Origin: Planococcus rifietoensis
GTDB taxonomy: Bacteria > Bacillota > Bacilli > Bacillales_A > Planococcaceae
Reading direction: 5' to 3'
DNA: 64,000 bases
Assembly (NCBI RefSeq): GCF_001465795.2
Contig: NZ_CP013659.2
Span: 2,312,501 to 2,376,500, forward strand
Shown piece after piece: positions 6,558 to 63,371 of the stretch. Under the pieces are notes generated by a model. That model did no database searches and was not told the origin of the DNA. It saw nothing but the letters and a program-made list of their open reading frames with translations. Position 1 is the stretch's first letter. Each line of letters opens with the position of its first letter. The translations under genes and the position numbers were made by a program.

Positions 6558-6683
6558 AAACGTTCTTAAATTTAGTTTTGTGGACTTCCGTTTAATCCAA
6601 AGTATAACCTTCCGATGACCGTGTGATATGTAAACTCCTACCCATTCAGAAATACGATCTCAAAACCTTAGATTATAGCCTTT

Positions 6684-6717
6684 TGAATGTAACTTAATTG
6701 CCATTAAATTTCATTCA
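6684..6717. repeat. 34-bp palindrome, copy 1 of 4
   Basis: Arms TGAATGTAACTTAAT and ATTAAATTTCATTCA (two mismatches) with a 4-base centre TGCC. It lies 110 nt before the start of the 6828-7256 gene. It is the most diverged copy. Confidence 0.85.
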
Positions 6718-6827
6718 GAATTAAGAAAGAGCTTTCACTAAATCCCTCTTTTTTGAAAAAATGAAACTTTAAAGGAAGTTGATTAGTATAGTTAGTGTAA
6801 CTAATTGAACAATAAGGAGGCGACTTC

Positions 6828-7256
6828 ATGTATGGTGTTGAATCTTCTTTTTCGCTAGCTTTACTTCTCATAGTTGCCATTTTCCTCGTAATGCTAGCCT
6901 TATTTAATGCCATCATGCGAAAGTGGTTAAGAGTCGAAAAACCAAAAGCATTCTCCAATAACCATGTAAATGATAAGCACAAGAAAATCGATTGGAGCAT
7001 CCGAATTTTCGGTATCACTATGATGGTAGCAGGATATTTTATTAATGTGACGAGGCTTCCTCAAGAACCTTACTTGCTCCTGGAACCATGGTTTTTGTTG
7101 TTGGTATTCCTCTTTGCCACCGAAATCGTAAGAGCAATCATGGAACGCAAATATGCGAAGAATCCTAATGCCTATCTTTATACAATCAGCCAACTGGTTT
7201 TTCTACTTATATTTCTCGTCTCATTATTTACAACTGATTTTTTTGGTTTTTTATAA
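6828..7256 (+). CDS. integral membrane protein, DUF4181-like
   Basis: 142 residues with four hydrophobic segments (about 6-30, 58-76, 85-103, 115-136). The central motif NDKHKKIDW and EIVRAIMERKYAKN...YTISQLVF match my recollection of the DUF4181 family of small Bacillus membrane proteins, whose function is unknown. AGGAGG lies just before the ATG. It is the only gene between palindrome copies 1 and 2, and copy 2 begins 30 nt past its stop. Confidence 0.75.
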   Translation: MYGVESSFSLALLLIVAIFLVMLALFNAIMRKWLRVEKPKAFSNNHVNDKHKKIDWSIRIFGITMMVAGYFINVTRLPQEPYLLLEPWFLLLVFLFATEIVRAIMERKYAKNPNAYLYTISQLVFLLIFLVSLFTTDFFGFL

Positions 7257-7286
7257 CCAATATAACTAACCCTTCTACTGGAATGC

Positions 7287-7318
7287 GAATGTAACTTAAT
7301 TGCTATTAAGTTATATTC
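7287..7318. repeat. 34-bp palindrome, copy 2 of 4
   Basis: GAATGTAACTTAAT, four bases TGCT, then ATTAAGTTATATTC; one mismatch between arms. It begins 30 nt after the stop of the preceding plus-strand gene, and no T-run follows. Confidence 0.9.
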
Positions 7319-7456
7319 AAACTGAGCAGAAGAACTCCTTAGGATTTTTTTAGAGAAATGAAATTTGTATGGAGAAAAAAGGTATATGTAATACTGAGTG
7401 AAATATTAAAAATTAAACTACATAAAATTTCATAATTGGATTAAGGAGATTAAAAA

Positions 7457-7618
7457 ATGAAAAGTTACTTAATCTATATTTTTCTAATAATCGTAATTAC
7501 TATAGCTGCCATTGATACCTAAGGGCAGACCGACAAAACTATCATGTACGGCATAGCTCTTGTAAGCACAATAGTTTTAATAATTATAAAAGCAACAGAG
7601 AAAGAAGAAGGAGAGTAG
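7457..7618 (+). pseudogene. small membrane protein gene interrupted by an in-frame TAA
   Basis: A good AAGGAG site precedes ATG 7457. The frame encodes 21 residues beginning MKSYLIYIFLIIV, then TAA at 7520-7522, then 31 more codons in the same frame (a second hydrophobic segment and a KEEGE tail) to TAG 7618, which sits inside a terminator. Together they would make a two-segment membrane protein of about 53 residues. The single stop suggests recent inactivation, or that only the 21-residue peptide is made. Confidence 0.6.
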
Positions 7619-7640
7619 CAATTGCTACTTTCCTTCTTTT
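7607..7640 (+). terminator. intrinsic terminator overlapping the stop of the broken small gene
   Basis: A 15-bp stem with one mismatch (GAAGGA...GCAA / TTGC...TCCTTC) followed by TTTT. The TAG at 7616 lies within the 5' arm. Confidence 0.85.
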
Positions 7641-7670
7641 AAATAATCAACTATCCATAGTTGATTATTT
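7641..7670. repeat. perfect 30-bp palindrome
   Basis: Two perfect 14-base arms (AAATAATCAACTAT and its reverse complement) around CC, directly after the terminator at 7607-7640. Its sequence is unrelated to the 34-bp palindromes. It could be a second terminator or an operator. Confidence 0.8.
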
Positions 7671-7732
7671 CCTTGCTTAATTCTAAGCGGTTAATGAAAA
7701 AGACAAACAAGAGAATCTCTTATCTACTCTTT

Positions 7733-7766
7733 TGAATGTAACTTAATTCACATTAAGTTACATTCA
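7733..7766. repeat. 34-bp palindrome, copy 3 of 4
   Basis: Perfect 15-base arms TGAATGTAACTTAAT and its reverse complement, with centre TCAC. It lies 15 nt past the stop of the minus-strand gene 7782-8003. Confidence 0.95.
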
Positions 7767-7781
7767 CATTAGATGAAAACC

Positions 7782-8003
7782 TTAATCAAGATAATAAGAA
7801 TCCAAGATATTGTAGAAGATAGGAATTAAAAAAGCACCTGCAATACAAATAAGGGCCGCTATTTTCGCTTGTTTTCGCAGGCGATCCTCATCGCTTTTTA
7901 AGTACTCGAAAAAGTTAAAAGTAAAATAAAAGCCAATAATAAGCAAAACCACTGATAAAATTTCCAACCACCTCTGTGTTTCTAGTAATCCTAAATTAAA
8001 CAA
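7782..8003 (-). CDS. small membrane protein
   Basis: 73 residues with two hydrophobic segments (about 13-31 and 47-65) separated by a charged loop (KSDEDRLRKQAK). It starts at TTG with AAGAGG 8 nt upstream. It is bracketed by palindrome copies 3 and 4. No family recognised. Confidence 0.6.
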   Translation of the reverse strand: MFNLGLLETQRWLEILSVVLLIIGFYFTFNFFEYLKSDEDRLRKQAKIAALICIAGAFLIPIFYNILDSYYLD

Positions 8004-8052
8004 TTAAATTTCCTCTTTTCACTTTTAGATTTAATTTTTATTTTAGCTAAAT

Positions 8053-8086
8053 TGAATGTAACTTAACTGCACTTAAGTTACATTCA
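8053..8086. repeat. 34-bp palindrome, copy 4 of 4
   Basis: Perfect 14-base arms TGAATGTAACTTAA and its reverse complement, with a 6-base centre CTGCAC. It lies 18 nt past the stop of the minus-strand gene 8105-8437 and 49 nt before the start of the next gene. Confidence 0.95.
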
Positions 8087-8104
8087 CACCCTCAACTTTA
8101 TTGT

Positions 8105-14500: not shown

Positions 14501-15646
14501 TGATGGGTTTTCTAGGTCGCTTTCACCACGTTTTACTATAAAGTTTAAGTTTTCACTTACTCCTATGAAATCTTGTGTATAGTACAATTCTAGATTCGAT
14601 GCATTGTCATGTGCGGCAATGTAATGGAAGGTCCATTGACCGACCTCATCGTTAAATTCAATTTGATAGGAACCTTCGAATAAACCAGTTTCTGGGTTGA
14701 GGTTTAAGTCAATACTTATATTTCGATTGGCTGACGGAGAATTGAACCTTGCACTTACACGCCTTACTCCCGAAATATCGTCTACTACCGAAGCCTTTAC
14801 CATCACTTCTTCCCCAATAGAAACCTCTTTTGAACTAACCTCTAAAAATTCTACTTTGGGAGGTGTCCCGTCCCCGTCTTCATTTAACACTGTATAATCT
14901 AAGGAATTCTGAAAACTTCCCGAGTAGTACAACTCCAAGTTAGAGGCATTATCATGTGCGGCAATATAATGGAAAATCCATTGACCACCTTCATCGTTCT
15001 CCTGAATTTGATATGACCCTTCAAACAAGCCTGTTGTTGGGTTTTCAGTTAAATCGATGCTAATACTCCGATTATCTGATGGAGAATTAAACCTCGCACT
15101 GACACGTCTAATCCCAGAAATATCATCAACTACCTCAGCACTTACCTTTATTTTCTCTCCAACGTTCACTTCCTTCGGACTTACCTCCATAGAAACTACT
15201 TTTGGAGGTGTTCCATCTCCGCCTGCATTTAGCACTATGTAATCTAAGGAATTCTGAAAGCTACTCGAGTAGTACAACTCCAAGTTAGAGGCATTATCAT
15301 GTGCGGCAATATAATGGAAAGTCCATTGACCACCTTCATCGTTCTCCTGAATTTGATATGACCCTTCAAACAAGCCTGTTATTGGGTTTTCAGCTAAATC
15401 GATGCTAATACTCCGATTATCTGATGGAGAATTAAACCTTGCACTGACACGTCTAACCCCAGAAATGTCATCAACTACCTCAGCGCTTACCTTTATTTTC
15501 TCTCCGACGTTCACTTCTTTTGGACTTACATCTATAGAAACTACCTTAGGTGGAAGTCCATCGCCGCCATCCGCAAACACCGGAACCATCCCAGAAACTA
15601 ACTGGAACATCATTAAAATCACTGTAAATATTACTGCTCTCTTCAT
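11585..15646 (-). CDS. secreted multi-repeat surface protein with CW_binding_2 repeats
   Basis: A wall-associated protein of 1353 residues. From the N-terminus: signal peptide (1-26, MKRAVIFT...VFA); three tandem 115-residue beta domains (each with PKEV..GE and DDISGVRRVSARFNSPS); a linker that may fold as a beta helix; a fibronectin-III-like domain near 560-650; six Ig-like repeats of about 82 residues (motif TAPxxPxVxxVTDK); and three CW_binding_2 repeats over about the last 290 residues (RISGKSRYGTAIAIS, RIGGKNRFDTAALIA, RYGGKNRYETGLEV). CW_binding_2 holds proteins to the wall non-covalently. No catalytic domain is visible, so an adhesin or stalk role is inferred. The start at ATG 15646 fits AAGAAGG 9 nt upstream better than an ATG 21 nt earlier. 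Confidence 0.9.
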   Translation of the reverse strand: MKRAVIFTVILMMFQLVSGMVPVFADGGDGLPPKVVSIDVSPKEVNVGEKIKVSAEVVDDISGVRRVSARFNSPSDNRSISIDLAENPITGLFEGSYQIQENDEGGQWTFHYIAAHDNASNLELYYSSSFQNSLDYIVLNAGGDGTPPKVVSMEVSPKEVNVGEKIKVSAEVVDDISGIRRVSARFNSPSDNRSISIDLTENPTTGLFEGSYQIQENDEGGQWIFHYIAAHDNASNLELYYSGSFQNSLDYTVLNEDGDGTPPKVEFLEVSSKEVSIGEEVMVKASVVDDISGVRRVSARFNSPSANRNISIDLNLNPETGLFEGSYQIEFNDEVGQWTFHYIAAHDNASNLELYYTQDFIGVSENLNFIVKRGESDLENPSINDPALPYAVTTKNEAWINKTIDKDLYIGPNSTITIADDVTITGDVYVYGTLITHGGLSIGGTLNAKTVTYGSTSYAAPGAVRVIGGVNSIRSTSVSNQAYPVPFDIHSEDLTNDMDTAVIKGKTLPFLDVTMQGNPVSLEADGSFTATADPVTSDGISFNLRDVFGNNMKKQISVTDVVAPAEVQNFSVSKTTATELQVSWNANSEQDLNGYELYLNGEFVEAVSADTLDYTFIGLEEGTSYDVAIAAADFNDNVGETVKASGTTLLSKPVVEPINDKSTSVTGQAAVGTTILIAAGEEEIASGKVSSDGNFAIEIPAQKAGTELSISTSNEAGIVSEKAIITVEDKTAPETPKAETVSDKDTMINGTAEAGAAIAIKLGDNTIGEGSADESGNFSIAITKQQAGDKLTVIATDAAGNASEALSITVVDMTAPKAPTVEKVTDKMVSVKGTVEAGSSISVNQGSAEIGTATADAQGNYAVSIAKQTAGTELNVTATDKAGNVSEATMVTVQDGTAPSAPSVEEVTDKSTTVSGTAEAGSNVSVKTGSKELAKSITDKEGNFEVSIAKQKAGTKLIITATDTAGNTSEATEIIISDVTAPEIPSVNPVTHKTTEITGSAEALGKVSVSKDSKVIASGIATEEGTYRIAIDPQPVDTKLEVTVADQAGNISGKASVLVEKAAPEETTRISGKSRYGTAIAISKEGWETADTVVLATAGDFPDALAGGPLAFQEDAPILLTRTGNLTDETKAEIKRLGAKKVIILGSKGAVSLEVEEEVKQMGIITERIGGKNRFDTAALIAERLDSAEAVIAYGLNFPDVLSVSAYAAKNGIPILLTRTDKLPAETAAALKSTSKTHVIGSTGAVAEAVFNSLPNPVRYGGKNRYETGLEVNNKLMMGTEKAFIATGSNFPDALAGSVLAAKNDAPILLVKEQVIPDATAEQLNAYEAYSIFGGTGAVGEIVREQLDQQLKN
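14560..15600 (-). repeat. three tandem 345-bp coding repeats
   Basis: The three N-terminal domains of the surface protein repeat with a period of exactly 345 bp (115 codons). The first two copies, at about 14890-15235 and 15236-15580, are nearly identical at DNA level including third codon positions; the third (about 14545-14890) is diverged. This indicates a recent in-frame duplication and a locus able to change copy number. Confidence 0.85.
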
Positions 15647-32582: not shown

Positions 32583-32624
32583 ATAAAGGTCAGCTGAAGA
32601 AATTGGAGAAAGGCTCACAATTCG

Positions 32625-32710
32625 CCCACTTCCCTACGCTGGTATAATCCAGATCAGGTTCAAAGGGTCCGGACTCTTGTCCGTCTCAGCCAACATGGCT
32701 CCCCTAGTGG
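32625..32710 (-). promoter_or_regulatory. TPP riboswitch aptamer
   Basis: The minus strand reads the THI-box core: AGGGGAGCC, GGCTGAGAC, then GACCCTTTGAACCTGATCTG, ACCAGCGTAGGGAAG, closed by P1 CCACT/AGTGG. It lies about 100 nt upstream of tenA and controls tenA-thiM-thiD-thiE-thiW. Recognition is from conserved primary sequence and is very secure. Confidence 0.98.
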
Positions 32711-32845
32711 AATAGCGATATTTTTTTATTGTCGGCAATAGAATACCATAGCTGGCTTGCGAATTCAAAACTTTTTGAATTTGGAATAGCAAGAGTCTAA
32801 TTGTTTAATTAGAATTAGCTTGCCCGGTTCGTCTGCCAGCTATCC

Positions 32846-32931
32846 GCAGCCCGCTTGGGGTTGGCCTCCCGCAATAAGCCAAGAAGATCACTTGTCTTAT
32901 TGCTTCGGCTCACCCTTAAGCGCGTGGCTGC
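32846..32931. repeat. structured repeat A, copy A1
   Basis: Nested hairpin read on the plus strand: outer stem GCAGCC/GGCTGC, GGGTT/ACCC, GCAATAAG/CTTATTGC and inner CAAG/CTTG. With A2 and A3 it forms the A-I subfamily, where the outer stem is GCAGCC rather than GCCGCC. The region 32711-33642 holds only these repeats and no gene. Confidence 0.8.
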
Positions 32932-33091
32932 TTTTAGATTTGGTTGAATTGGATTGAGAACATGGGACTGGGTTCGTATATGTCATCCACTTTGGTTCAT
33001 TCGCATAGCGCGGCTAGCTAGTCGTAGGAAAATAGCTAGAGTTTTGGTGTTTAGTTTTGATGGTATTCACTGCAGTTTCTGCTGGTTCTTC

Positions 33092-33280
33092 GCAGCCACG
33101 CTTGGGGTTGAGCTTTCACAATGAGCCAATTAATTGGCGAAAGGCAGTTGAGCCGCTTCATTTGCGACGCATCTGCTTTTGCAGATGTGGGAGCAAAGTT
33201 ATACGTTGATTTCCCAATCTAGTGGAGTATGCGAAGTTTATCATTTTCCGGCTTCGCTTCACCCTTAAGCGCGTGGCTGC
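33092..33280. repeat. structured repeat A, copy A2 (long form)
   Basis: Outer stem GCAGCCACGC/GCGTGGCTGC, a perfect 10 bp, with a different, longer interior (GCCAATTAATTGGC hairpin flanked by TTTC/GAAA, then GCATCTGCTTTTGCAGATG). The ends match A1 and A3, so the interior was replaced or extended. Confidence 0.75.
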
Positions 33281-33440
33281 TTTTAGATTTCGCTGGATTG
33301 GCAAGAGAACAAGTGAATAAGTTTATAAATGTCATTCGCTTTAATTCATTTACTTAGCTGGGCTAGCTAATGGAATCAAGATAGCTGTAATTTTGATGTT
33401 TACTTGGAATAGTACTTATCAATTCTGGTTCTAGTTATCC

Positions 33441-33526
33441 GCAGCACGCTTGGGGTTGGCCTCCCGCAATAAGCCAAGAAGGTCACTTGTCTTATTGCTT
33501 CGGCTCACCCTTAAGCGCGTGGCTGC
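33441..33526. repeat. structured repeat A, copy A3
   Basis: Nearly identical to A1 over the 86-nt core (CAAG/CTTG tip, GCAATAAG/CTTATTGC stem, GCAGC outer stem with one bulge). Same orientation as all other copies. Confidence 0.8.
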
Positions 33527-33642
33527 TTTTAGAGTTCATTGAAATTTAAAATGTGTAAGCAAGTGGCTGTGCAATTTTCATCTACTTTGGTTCGATTGCT
33601 TAATTGGAATGGCGAGGTCTAGCTTGTGTATAGGCAAAGGCT

Positions 33643-45770: not shown

Positions 45771-45867
45771 ATGCGTTGGGGACTTAGTGTGAAGGTGTAT
45801 AAGGAGATAGTAAGGGATTGGTTGTGGAATTGTTGCGAGGCTCTATTTTTTCTTCTTGGTAATATTC

Positions 45868-46010
45868 GCCGCCTTGCTTTGGGTTGGCCTTTGGCACTAA
45901 GCCAATGAAATGGCGAAAGGAAGTTGAGTCATTTCATTGCAAACTGACTGTTTAAGTAGATCTGCTTCTGTATGGAGTTGCCAGCTAGTGGAGGAATCGC
46001 TTCCTGGGAC
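45868..46010. repeat. structured repeat A, copy A4 (partial)
   Basis: Starts with GCCGCC...GGGTTGGCC like the other copies but carries the GCCAATGAAATGGC type of inner hairpin as in A2, and lacks the GGCGGC outer arm. The 3' tail (GATCTGCTTCTGTAT, GGAATCGCTTCC) matches A5-A9. Confidence 0.7.
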
Positions 46011-46082
46011 AAGTTTGGGATAGATAGCGAGGATTTGTTGTTTGTGGACCTATTACGATGTTTGATTTCAGCTTCATTCTAA

Positions 46083-46260
46083 TAGTCGCCGCCTTGCTTT
46101 GGGTTGGCCTCTCGCAATAAGCCAGGAAGAACACCTGTCTTATTGCTTCGGCTCACCCTGGGCGCTAGTCGGCTTAGAGATTTCATTGCAAGTTGACTGT
46201 TTAAGTAGATCTGCTTCTTTATGCAGTTGCCGGCTAGTGGGGGAATCGCTTCCCAAGACA
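46083..46260. repeat. structured repeat A, copy A5
   Basis: Full copy: GCCGCC/GTCGGC outer stem, GCAATAAG (46114-46121)/CTTATTGC (46139-46146), CAGG/CCTG tip, then a tail with CTGCTTCTTTATGCAG and GGGAATCGCTTCCC hairpins. It follows A4 in tandem. Confidence 0.8.
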
Positions 46261-46422
46261 CTTCATCTGGCACATGGCTGCTTACTTTTAAATTATGCGG
46301 ATAGATCCGAATTAATTTGCACATTCTTAAAAATAAGATGACTCAAGATACAAAACATGACGCACTTTCACGTAAAAGAAATTAGTAGGTTGAAGAAAAT
46401 ACCTCCCACTCTAAATATAGAG

Positions 46423-46671
46423 ACGGAGTGGAAGGGGGCTGACTCCTGTGGGACTGCGCGGGCTGGCGAGACAAACGTGCCGCACTCTTTGGCACGTTGG
46501 CTCAACACCCGCCCCACGGCAAGCAGCCCCCTGCAACGTAGTCGAAAAGCGGAAGCTTTTCAAATCTCTTCTTTCTATCTAACAGTTTTCGTCGCATCAG
46601 CTGCATGACTCGCATCCTGCGAGCCTCAAGCAGTCCCCTGCAACGCAGTCAAAAAGCGGAAGCTTTTCCTC
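46423..46671. repeat. structured repeat B, copy B1
   Basis: Closing stem GGGGGCTG (46434)/CAGCCCCC (46531), inner hairpin AACGTGCC/GGCACGTT with the motif GGCTGGCGAGACAAACGTGC, then CAACG.AGTCGAAAAGCGGA and AAAAGCGGAAGCTTTT. A second tail module (GTCGCATCAGCTGCATGACT) follows at about 46590-46671. Same order A then B as at two other loci. Confidence 0.8.
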
Positions 46672-46709
46672 TCTCCTTTTTTTAATCCCTACCTCCTATC
46701 CCCATCAAA

Positions 46710-56116: not shown

Positions 56117-56305
56117 AGTCGCCGCCTTGCTTTGGGTTGGCCTTTGGCAATAAGCCAGAAAGAACGCCTGTCTTACTGCGTCGGCTCATCCTTGGCGCCG
56201 GGCGGCTGAGAGATTTCGTTGATTCGGGTGCGTTTAATCAGATCTGCTTCTGTATGCAGTTGCCGGCTAGTGGGGGAATCGCTTCCCGGGATACAGCATC
56301 TGGCA
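56117..56305. repeat. structured repeat A, copy A6
   Basis: Core 56121-56206: GCCGCCT/GGGCGGC outer stem (with one T.G pair), GCAATAAG/CTTACTGC, CAG/CTG tip; then tail with CTGCTTCTGTATGCAG and GGGAATCGCTTCCC. Same orientation as the others. Between the subtilase promoter and this repeat (55680-56110) is A+T-rich DNA with no gene. Confidence 0.8.
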
Positions 56306-56451
56306 TATTATATGCTTGAGTTAAAAACCTTGTTGGAGTATGAGAAAGGACCAGACTCTCTGTATCAAAGATGATTTAAGCCACAACGCATGAAGCATTT
56401 CTACATTTTCTGTCGAGTGAACAGAAGAAATTTCCTTCCCCTTTTAAAAAG

Positions 56452-56760
56452 AGAGACGGAGTGGAAGGGGGCTGACGCCTGTGGGACCGCGCGGGCTGGC
56501 GAGACAAACGTGCCGCGCTATTTGGCACGTTGGCTCAACACCCGCCCCTATCCCCGGGCAGCTGAAAGCGCGACGTCCTGTCGCATCAGCTGCATGACCC
56601 GCCTCCTGCAGGCCCCAAGCAGCTCCCTGCAACGAAGTCGCAAAGCGGATGCTTTTCCTATCACTTCTTTATTCATTTCGCAGTTTAAGTCGCATCAGCT
56701 GCATAACTCTTATCCTATGAACCCAAAGCCTGCGCCTGCAACGCAGTTGAACAAATAAAG
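56452..56760. repeat. structured repeat B, copy B2
   Basis: GGGGGCTG start, AACGTGCC/GGCACGTT hairpin, CAGCTG...CAGCTG enclosing GCGAC/GTCGC, and a repeated tail module (TCGCATCAGCTGCAT twice). The 110 bp linking A6 to B2 are also conserved at 63000-63110 (CGAGTGAACAGAAGAAA). Confidence 0.8.
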
Positions 56761-56814
56761 CTTTTCCAATCACTCCTCTATCACCTCCCTAGCTCAATTG
56801 CATTTCCACAAAAA

Positions 56815-61986: not shown

Positions 61987-62306
61987 AATAAACACCTCGT
62001 AATCAATGAATCCATCATAGCATTATTATTACAATTATTACAATAGAGCTAATATTAGGTAAAGACGCACGACCATAGGAAAGGGTTCCCTAATAGCCCC
62101 TCATCCCTTGAGTGGCAAGGTATGGCGCTTATTTTTGATGTATTGTGATTTTACGAAAAATTAATGAGGGAGATTGGGCTGCTATATTCTTCATGGAGTT
62201 TCAGACTAATTCAGCACGGCTTTTTTATAGCATGTGTAGGAAGTAGAAATTGAAGGGTTGTGTGTAACATTATTTCGATGTTCGATTTGGCTTCACGTTG
62301 CTAGTC

Positions 62307-62393
62307 GCCGCCGAGCTTTGGGTTGGCCTCTTGCCATAAGCCAGGAAAAGCACCTGTCTTACGGCATCGGCTCACCCTTTTACGCTCGGCGGC
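62307..62393. repeat. structured repeat A, copy A7
   Basis: Perfect 10-bp outer stem GCCGCCGAGC/GCTCGGCGGC; TGCCATAAG/CTTACGGCA (one mismatch); CAGG/CCTG tip. First unit of a tandem array with a period of about 249 bp. Confidence 0.85.
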
Positions 62394-62555
62394 TTGGAGA
62401 TTTCGTTGATACGAATTCGTTTAGTCAGATCTGCTTCTGTAACTCTTTGCCGGCTAGTGGGGGAATCGCTTCCTGAGTCGAGCGCATGTTGAGGCTTGCG
62501 AGGGTTTGCTTGTGAAATTGTTTCTGTGCTCTGTTCGAACTTCACTTGAATAGTC

Positions 62556-62641
62556 GCCGCCGGGCTTTGGGTTGGCCTCTTGCCATAAGCCAAGAAGACC
62601 ACTTGTCTGACGGCATCGGCTCACCCTTGGCGCTAGGCGGC
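62556..62641. repeat. structured repeat A, copy A8
   Basis: GCCGCCGGGC/GCTAGGCGGC outer stem with one mismatch and one wobble; CAAG/CTTG tip instead of CAGG/CCTG (compensatory). Confidence 0.82.
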
Positions 62642-62803
62642 TGAGAGATTTCGTTGATTCGGGTGTGTTTAGTCAGATCTGCTTCTTTATTCAGTTGCCG
62701 GCTAGTGGGGGAATCGCTTCCTGAGTCGAGCGCATGTTGAGGCTTGCGAGGGTTTGCTTGTGAAATTGTCTCTGTGCTCTGTTCGAACTTCACTTGAATA
62801 GTC

Positions 62804-62890
62804 GCCGCCCTGCTTTGGGTTGGCCTCTTGCCATAAGCCAAGAAGACCGCTTGTCTTACTGCATCGGCTCACCCCTTTACGCTGGGCGGC
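62804..62890. repeat. structured repeat A, copy A9
   Basis: GCCGCCC/GGGCGGC outer stem; position 7 is C-G here, G-C in A7 and A-T in A2. CAAG/CTTG tip. Confidence 0.82.
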
Positions 62891-63061
62891 TATGAGATTT
62901 CTTTGATTCGGGTGTGTTTAATCAGATCTGCTTCTTTATTCAGTTGCCGGCTAGCAGGGGAATCACTTCCTGCGATGCAGCATCTGGCATGTTGGTGCTT
63001 CAGTCGAAATGTTTAGTCAGAACTAACTAGTCTCTCTACACCAAAGATGACTTGAGCTAAA

Positions 63062-63330
63062 AACATGAAGCATTCCCACATTTTACGTCGAGTGAACAGA
63101 AGAAAATTTCTTCCCCTCTAAAACTAGAGACGGAGTGAAAGGGGGCTGACGCCTGTGGGACCGCGCGGGCTGGCGAGACAAACGTGCCACGTTCTTCGGC
63201 ACGTTGGCCGGGCACCCGCCCCATCCCCGGGCAGCTGAAAACGCGACGTCCTGTCGCATCAGCTGCATGACTCGCATCCTGCGAGCCCCAAGCAGCCCCC
63301 TGCAACGCAGTCGAAAAGCCGAAGCTTTTC
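63062..63330. repeat. structured repeat B, copy B3
   Basis: GGGGGCTG (63140)...CAGCCCCC (about 63292-63299) closing stem; AACGTGCC/GGCACGTT hairpin; CAGCTG/CAGCTG enclosing GCGAC/GTCGC; CTCGCA/TGCGAG; ends in AAAAGC..GAAGCTTTT. Preceded by the same linker as B2. Confidence 0.85.
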
Positions 63331-63371
63331 CAATCCCTTTTTTCAATCACTTCATTATTAATTCTCACACA

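Follow-up and report, generated by a model that had tools for sequence, protein, structure and literature searches.

According to the parts of each source available to us, several described repeats and RNAs offer comparisons for the element reported here. BOX of Streptococcus pneumoniae is a composite, oriented intergenic repeat whose tandem module varies in number and for which an RNA fold is predicted; its present-day insertion is slow (PMC3049150). Messenger RNA of Bacillus cereus contained 84 of 165 and 62 of 155 copies of intergenic repeats, and a role as RNA elements was suggested for bcr10 and bcr18, whose folds are conserved (PMC3446304). REPs are 20–40 bp long (PMC3733652) and alternate in orientation within BIMEs (PMC2817692). 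A survey of stem-loop families deals with other repeats of Bacillus species (PMC2267715), and Bacillaceae-1 RNA is tabulated in Weinberg 2010 (PMC2864571). The repeat that we call A is not described in the accessible parts of PMC3049150, PMC3446304, PMC2817692, PMC2267715 and PMC2864571, and no description of it was found in the open-access literature searched. Short intergenic repeats are often filed as selfish leftovers.

The window, a stretch of 64,000 nt (NZ_CP013659.2, 2312501–2376500), holds nine A copies in one orientation, at 32.8–33.6, 45.8–46.3, 56.1–56.3 and 62.3–63.0 kb, as had been read from the sequence alone (Table 1). With BOX, A arrays share ordered modules and a variable tandem number, one to six A units being accompanied by a second repeat, B, on one side in 27 of 37 arrays; they differ in a tandem unit of ~248 nt, in lacking, by eye, boxA/boxC-like ends, and in belonging to other bacteria. 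boxB is far shorter than 248 nt. Like bcr1–bcr18 of the Bacillus cereus group, A is an intergenic repeat of Bacilli, but it forms tandem arrays of fixed period, which the accessible part of PMC3446304 does not mention for bcr. High copy number, extragenic position, a hairpin and, in genus g27, alternating arrays are likenesses to REPs and BIMEs, whereas the A hairpin is ~93 nt long with internal loops, and the presence of Y1_Tnp does not go with A copy number. Bacillaceae-1 RNA (RF01690) lies in the neighbouring B repeat, on the window's plus strand, but it is a different sequence, ~340–350 nt from the nearest A hairpin.

No published family had been recognized in A by the sequence-only reading, and this stands, since no family in Rfam 15 matches the hairpin. 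The window gave three Rfam matches at gathering score, none over A, and 10 loci of the source genome and nine of other genera, searched at E ≤ 1, gave nothing over the hairpin; the nearest match, Leu_leader at 24.4 bits (50 needed), touches one end in a single locus (L008). On the window and these 19 loci, an Rfam identity was rejected. A TPP riboswitch (RF00059, 85.7 bits) lies on the minus strand at 32614–32715, ~125 nt from A1.

Table 1. Features of the A and B repeats, in window coordinates
Feature	Position	Strand	Remarks
A1 nested hairpin	32841..32934	-	nhmmer; cmsearch R1 93.9 bits; in alignment
A2, base and middle stems kept, ~100-nt alternative apical domain	33090..33288	-	aligned with seven other long-apex copies
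A3 nested hairpin	33436..33529	-	cmsearch R1 90.4 bits
A4 truncated	45866..46011	-	5' arm (plus reading) and piece of apical insert; other arm lost, tail kept
A5 nested hairpin	46084..46176	-	cmsearch R1 110.5 bits
A5 tail hairpin	46241..46254	-	GGGAA-GCGA-TTCCC, GNRA loop
B repeat beside A4-A5	46392..46686	+	no Rfam match at gathering score
A6 nested hairpin, single-unit locus	56117..56209	-	cmsearch R1 99.7 bits
A6 tail hairpin	56274..56287	-	GNRA loop
B repeat beside A6	56389..56784	+	Bacillaceae-1 at 56557-56612 (+)
A7 nested hairpin	62303..62396	-	cmsearch R1 108.9 bits
A7 tail hairpin	62461..62474	-	GNRA loop
Full ~248-nt array unit (hairpin, tail, spacer)	62544..62791	-	search query; at least 80 genome matches
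A8 nested hairpin	62552..62644	-	cmsearch R1 103.4 bits
A8 tail hairpin	62709..62722	-	GNRA loop
A9 nested hairpin	62800..62893	-	cmsearch R1 102.7 bits
A9 tail hairpin	62958..62971	-	loop GTGA (GNRA)
B repeat beside A7-A9 array	63064..63360	+	contains Rfam Bacillaceae-1 at 63230-63285 (+)

With the 248-nt unit as query, at least 80 matches were found in the source genome (G000; 3.505 Mb, one contig; 40 of 51 candidates scored). A unit profile applied to stretches extracted from this genome returned 86 hits, some of them pieces, which fall into at least 37 arrays of one to six units each, a lower bound because only 40 of the 51 candidates in the whole-genome match list were scored. Each of the 37 arrays keeps a single orientation. 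Successive units lie 238–249 nt apart in 30 cases and ~215–230 nt apart in a diverged subfamily with a ~217-nt unit; in the window array neighbouring units are 91% and 83% identical without gaps, yet the spacing is kept. For the analysis of pairing, 72 of the 86 nhmmer hits were aligned, 13 split or partial hits and the truncated copy A4 (u17_0) being dropped and the ends of five rows reset by hand.

Read on the minus strand, the hairpin comprises an outer stem, an internal loop, middle stems of GGGT/ACCC and GCC/GGC, an 8-bp inner stem, an A×G mismatch and a 4-bp tip, with 28 pairs in all. A nested hairpin of ~86 nt had been claimed for all nine copies in the window; seven are intact, at ~93 nt, whereas A2 carries an alternative apex and A4 has lost its 3' arm. 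The paired stem changes that had been quoted are legible by eye: outer position 3 is C-G in A5–A9 and A-T in A1–A3, outer position 7 is G-C, C-G, A-T or T·G, and inner position 3 is A-T or C-G. The tip is CAGG/CCTG or CAAG/CTTG, a rule that fails for A6 (CAGA/CCTG). In A2 and seven other copies an alternative apical domain of ~100 nt occupies the same insertion point. A ~100-nt module with a CATCTGC..GCAGATG hairpin forms the alternative apex of some A hairpins (window 33090–33288; L169 12663–12693), and the apical module of long-apex copies is also seen by eye inside a B repeat (L163 1065–1354), as if apical domains had been exchanged.

Pairing exceeds that of shuffles. In the 72 units, 94.0% of pair cells are standard as compared with 87.9% (s.d. 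0.3) after shuffling, and 133 cells have changed on both sides as compared with 42.0, values reached by none of 500 shuffles. Fifteen of the 28 pairs vary on both sides, and pairing falls to 26–45% when the partner is shifted by one to three columns. For 57 distinct units from four other genera the corresponding figures were 88.9% against 75.2% shuffled, with 230 double changes against 73.1, and for 137 distinct mixed units 91.5% against 79.0%, with 425 against 158.7; both of these alignments, having been fitted to the model, lean towards the proposed structure. One whole 248-nt unit folded no better than its shuffles on either strand.

A stricter test, a G-test with APC, was run against a null simulated with IQ-TREE AliSim on a tree built from the same columns. 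In the 72 units, one of the 28 pairs reached E < 0.05 over all 4186 column pairs, and eight of the 18 top-scoring column pairs were structure pairs. The 136 family sequences (136 of the 137 distinct rows kept) likewise gave one significant pair of the 28 in the all-pairs test. In both sets, every significant pair belongs to the structure. All-pairs significance is therefore modest. When the proposed pairs were tested by themselves, eight of the 28 passed in the family set; significant covariation had been named earlier as the check to make. The hairpin shows covariation of the kind expected of a structured non-coding RNA.

Compensation can also be followed in place between orthologous loci. 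Stretches compared between G000 and a close relative, G004, are mostly ~88–95% identical. Among 15 unit pairs (413 stem pairs), matched by position, which is uncertain inside arrays, 15 double changes keep pairing and three do not, as compared with 3.5 of any kind expected from per-site divergence; single changes keep pairing in 16 cases, break or make it in 21 and fall on non-pairs in three. For two loci that are single-unit in G000 (2.703 and 2.732 Mb), the flanking gene was traced through the genus and the adjoining unit compared, some of the species having two or three units. At 2.703 Mb, pair 20 is AT, GT or GC among six species, a seventh having been excluded for its long apex. At 2.732 Mb, pair 19 is CG, TG or TA and pair 28 is GC, GT or AT among five species, and two close species gave no A match. 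With all species pairs taken together, the two loci show 18 and 23 double changes in which pairing is kept and six and three in which it is not, with 4.0 and 8.75 expected. Outer-stem pairs are frequently broken between orthologues, both between G000 and G004 and at the two single-unit loci.

The counts in three alignments, together with orthologous pairs that change together in place, support the earlier proposal that folding is selected, which left RNA or DNA open and named a non-coding RNA, a mobile hairpin element or a protein site as candidates. That copies keep their pairing in place suggests use at the site, and not only at the time of spread. The arms might instead be made to agree without selection, by template switching between them during replication (quasi-palindrome correction) or by conversion between units; unit numbers in arrays do change, and several double changes occur together in some position-matched pairs (u17_1, u30_0). 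Template switching would, however, heal the internal loops and the apical-stem A×G mismatch, which stay unpaired in nearly all 72 units. Furthermore, loci with one unit in G000 show G·U intermediates in place, and an artefact of this kind would make G·U and A·C equally frequent in the inner stem. We consider it highly improbable.

Counted per locus and pair on the minus strand, G·U to A·C ratios in the inner stem are 20:3, 10:1 and 57:5 in three sets, numbers that are inflated in that orthologous loci were counted separately. The outer stem shows no strand bias (16:14, 8:10 and 38:32); the middle stems give 5:5, 2:2 and 8:1, and the tip 5:2, 2:10 and 20:7, where the 2:10 may come from misregister of a longer tip. 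Whole-structure totals in the other-genus set (30 G·U, 34 A·C) do not decide the strand, nor does single-sequence folding, in which minus is better in 39 of 72 and 35 of 57 units. RNAalifold, applied to 73 units, returned −26.2 for minus as compared with −12.6 for plus; given this and the minus preference of the inner stem, we rejected plus as the folding strand. The minus strand, opposite to the one chosen by the sequence-only reading, is the better supported. The inner stem's much greater tolerance of G·U than of A·C on one strand favours a strand-specific fold rather than a DNA cruciform, which would be symmetric, although the outer stem lacks this asymmetry. The asymmetry picks a strand rather than RNA over single-stranded DNA, since G·T is milder than A·C in DNA as well.

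A tail of the GGGAATCGCTTCCC type, which had been thought to accompany the hairpin generally, is present in A4–A9 and not in A1–A3. On the minus strand the tail hairpin reads GGGAA-GNRA-TTCCC and was found in 61 of the 65 examined hits that reach into the tail, with the loop GCGA in 54, GTGA in six and GTAA in one; the other profile hits of the 86 stop short of the tail, and most units of the ~217-nt subfamily are among them. A pseudoknot between AGAAGCA of the tail and the hairpin loop found no support by eye. The one-strand behaviour of the inner stem, the GNRA tail and the conserved internal loops together suggest RNA. Our best reading is that A is a structured single strand, likeliest RNA, kept by selection in place within a repeat that formerly spread as BOX or bcr elements did.

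The genomic setting of the arrays bears on what such a strand might do. Among gaps of 100 nt or longer, those with an A array are convergent in 16 cases, codirectional in 20 and divergent in one (n = 37), while gaps without A in the same stretches number seven, 52 and 27. Convergent gaps are enriched and divergent gaps avoided (Fisher p = 1.5e-5 and 2.8e-4), with gene orientation taken from long ORFs rather than annotation and background gaps from stretches picked around arrays. Of the 20 codirectional arrays, 13 have the minus-sense strand running with both genes and seven have it running against them. The convergent share (16 of 37 gaps with A as compared with seven of 86 without) favours a device at transcript ends, in which arrays would be roadblocks or RNA stabilizers between 3' ends and stem sequence would be free as long as it paired; in the pneumococcus, SPRITE is strongly enriched near 3' ends of convergent genes, according to the accessible part of PMC3049150. 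Nevertheless, 20 of the 37 arrays lie between codirectional genes, and the conserved internal loops, the GNRA tail and the fixed period exceed the needs of a plain roadblock. Between 61900 and 63450, around A7–A9, a single weak terminator-like site (plus strand, inside A8, 62626–62645) was found as compared with 2.3 in shuffles. We regard this alternative as improbable.

The same count led us to reject an intrinsic terminator (GC stem and U-tract), and promoter-like sites around A7–A9 also showed no excess over shuffles. A promoter in the A–B junction was considered and set aside; the junction is conserved, yet no sigma-A site is seen there by eye.

Covariance models were run against genomes inside and outside the family. 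Model R1 matched 36 of 36 same-genus genomes (G000 included) and none of 24 genomes of other families; within the family it matched 32 of 151 genomes in five of 19 genera at E ≤ 1e-6. The family model R2 matched 98 of 261 genomes of the order, in six of 19 genera, all 98 belonging to the family of the window. A pattern scan of named genomes yielded 66 stretches from Planococcus, Sporosarcina, Filibacter and one MAG labelled Massilimicrobiota, the stretch from the latter (L096) giving no model match. In genus g29, six of the seven genomes read (L276, L278, L279, L280, L282, L283) have a single degenerate A-like copy, at a site that they share; it is probably an old insertion in decay. No parental RNA gene of single copy emerged from 14 low-copy genomes, of which 14 loci were read, and the flanks of four loci have no common neighbour. 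A phage carrier was also rejected, as no phage record matched at E ≤ 1e-5. One 7-kb Planococcus plasmid record has three A places, among genes that look chromosomal.

Between G000 and G004 most arrays keep their place. Eighteen of 21 compared arrays occupy the orthologous place in G004, where the 33-kb array is represented by no more than a partial unit; eight of these 18 differ in the number of units. Three of the 21 (window 56 kb, 2.66 Mb and 2.77 Mb) are absent from G004, so single copies can be lost. At the 56-kb locus, G000 and G011 have an A–B block and G009 has A alone; G004, G013 and G020 gave no match to either repeat, though a B-like remnant is visible by eye in G004.

The main rival to a structured RNA is a non-autonomous element of the REP/BIME type, its single-stranded DNA hairpin being recognized in trans by a Y1 (HUH) transposase so that only foldable copies spread. 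Dispersal fits, two g27 genomes, which we take from the pattern scan to be Sporosarcina, having more than 100 model matches each (G172, 108; G177, 103). So does array form: in g27 (L075, L080, L084; genomes G172, G177, G097), where eight or nine hairpins occur in ~3 kb, L075 alternates strictly and L080 nearly so, resembling BIMEs, while L084 consists of near-identical 208-nt direct repeats. A recognizer of single-stranded DNA would likewise yield strand asymmetry, and DNA tolerates G·T pairs and GNNA-type loops. However, the Y1_Tnp gene does not track copy number. Searches of 22 same-genus genomes found PF01797 in 14 of them and in none of G004, G008, G016, G017 and G018, which have 22–68 model matches (68 in G004, 49 in G017, 33 in G018); an extinct or other transposase may lie behind the spread. 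In 19 G004 stretches A was absent from places without an array in G000. Terminal inverted repeats and target duplications at empty sites would mark a MITE; at the one locus read in six genomes, inspection by eye showed neither a clean empty site nor a target duplication. Compensation also continues where G000 has a single unit, which selection at transposition alone would not give. We find the REP-like alternative doubtful.

Taken as a whole, the explanation that we favour, with a probability of about 0.52, is a ~248-nt repeat that carries a minus-strand structured RNA module in intergenic arrays, most of them at gene 3' ends and usually with B alongside. The minus strand would fold, most likely as RNA, into the long nested hairpin and the short GNRA-capped hairpin. 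Minus-sense transcription of the arrays would come from read-through of the gene on that side or start at a promoter of a type not recognized here, and each hairpin would act as a structured RNA module, probably binding a protein or shaping an RNA end, its repetition in arrays setting the dose. Planococcus, Sporosarcina and relatives would have inherited the family from an ancestor in which it spread; in the comparison of two close species, the change lies mainly in units gained and lost within fixed arrays. From the evidence in hand we infer that the minus strand is RNA rather than single-stranded DNA, that it is transcribed and bound by protein, and that the host benefits. A more specific proposal, tentative and rather unlikely as it stands, is a multi-copy structured RNA of Planococcaceae that serves the host and is expressed from tens of loci in each genome, tandem hairpins with interchangeable apices titrating or scaffolding one RNA-binding protein and array length acting as dose. 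Since pairs in place change in step, with G·U intermediates on one strand, service to the host can be tested locus by locus, and natural array-length variants are usable for dose-effect tests. The analysis also yields covariance models for an element of several genera that has no match in the Rfam families tested.

The B repeat adjoins 27 of the 37 arrays, always on the same side and 38–294 nt distant, and a search of 700 nt on the opposite flank of the 37 gave no B. It has 54 matches of its own in the genome, some without an adjoining array. The B/Bacillaceae-1 alignment gave no consensus fold. The Bacillaceae-1 matches in B (63230–63285 and 56557–56612) lie on the plus strand with UCCU-type loops; the reverse strand of 63230–63285 reads GACAGGACGTC and CGCAGGATGCG, which we take to resemble CsrA-type hairpin sites.

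Other repeats occur in the window. At 6680–8103 a 55-nt element that contains a GAATGTAACTTAATT...AAGTTACATTC-type palindrome is present four times, and a 150-nt direct repeat (114–263 and 990–1139; 78% identity) has its copies 876 nt apart. Three 300-nt direct repeats with a 345-nt period, at 14580–15569, lie inside a minus-strand ORF of 1360 aa and are probably repeated protein domains.
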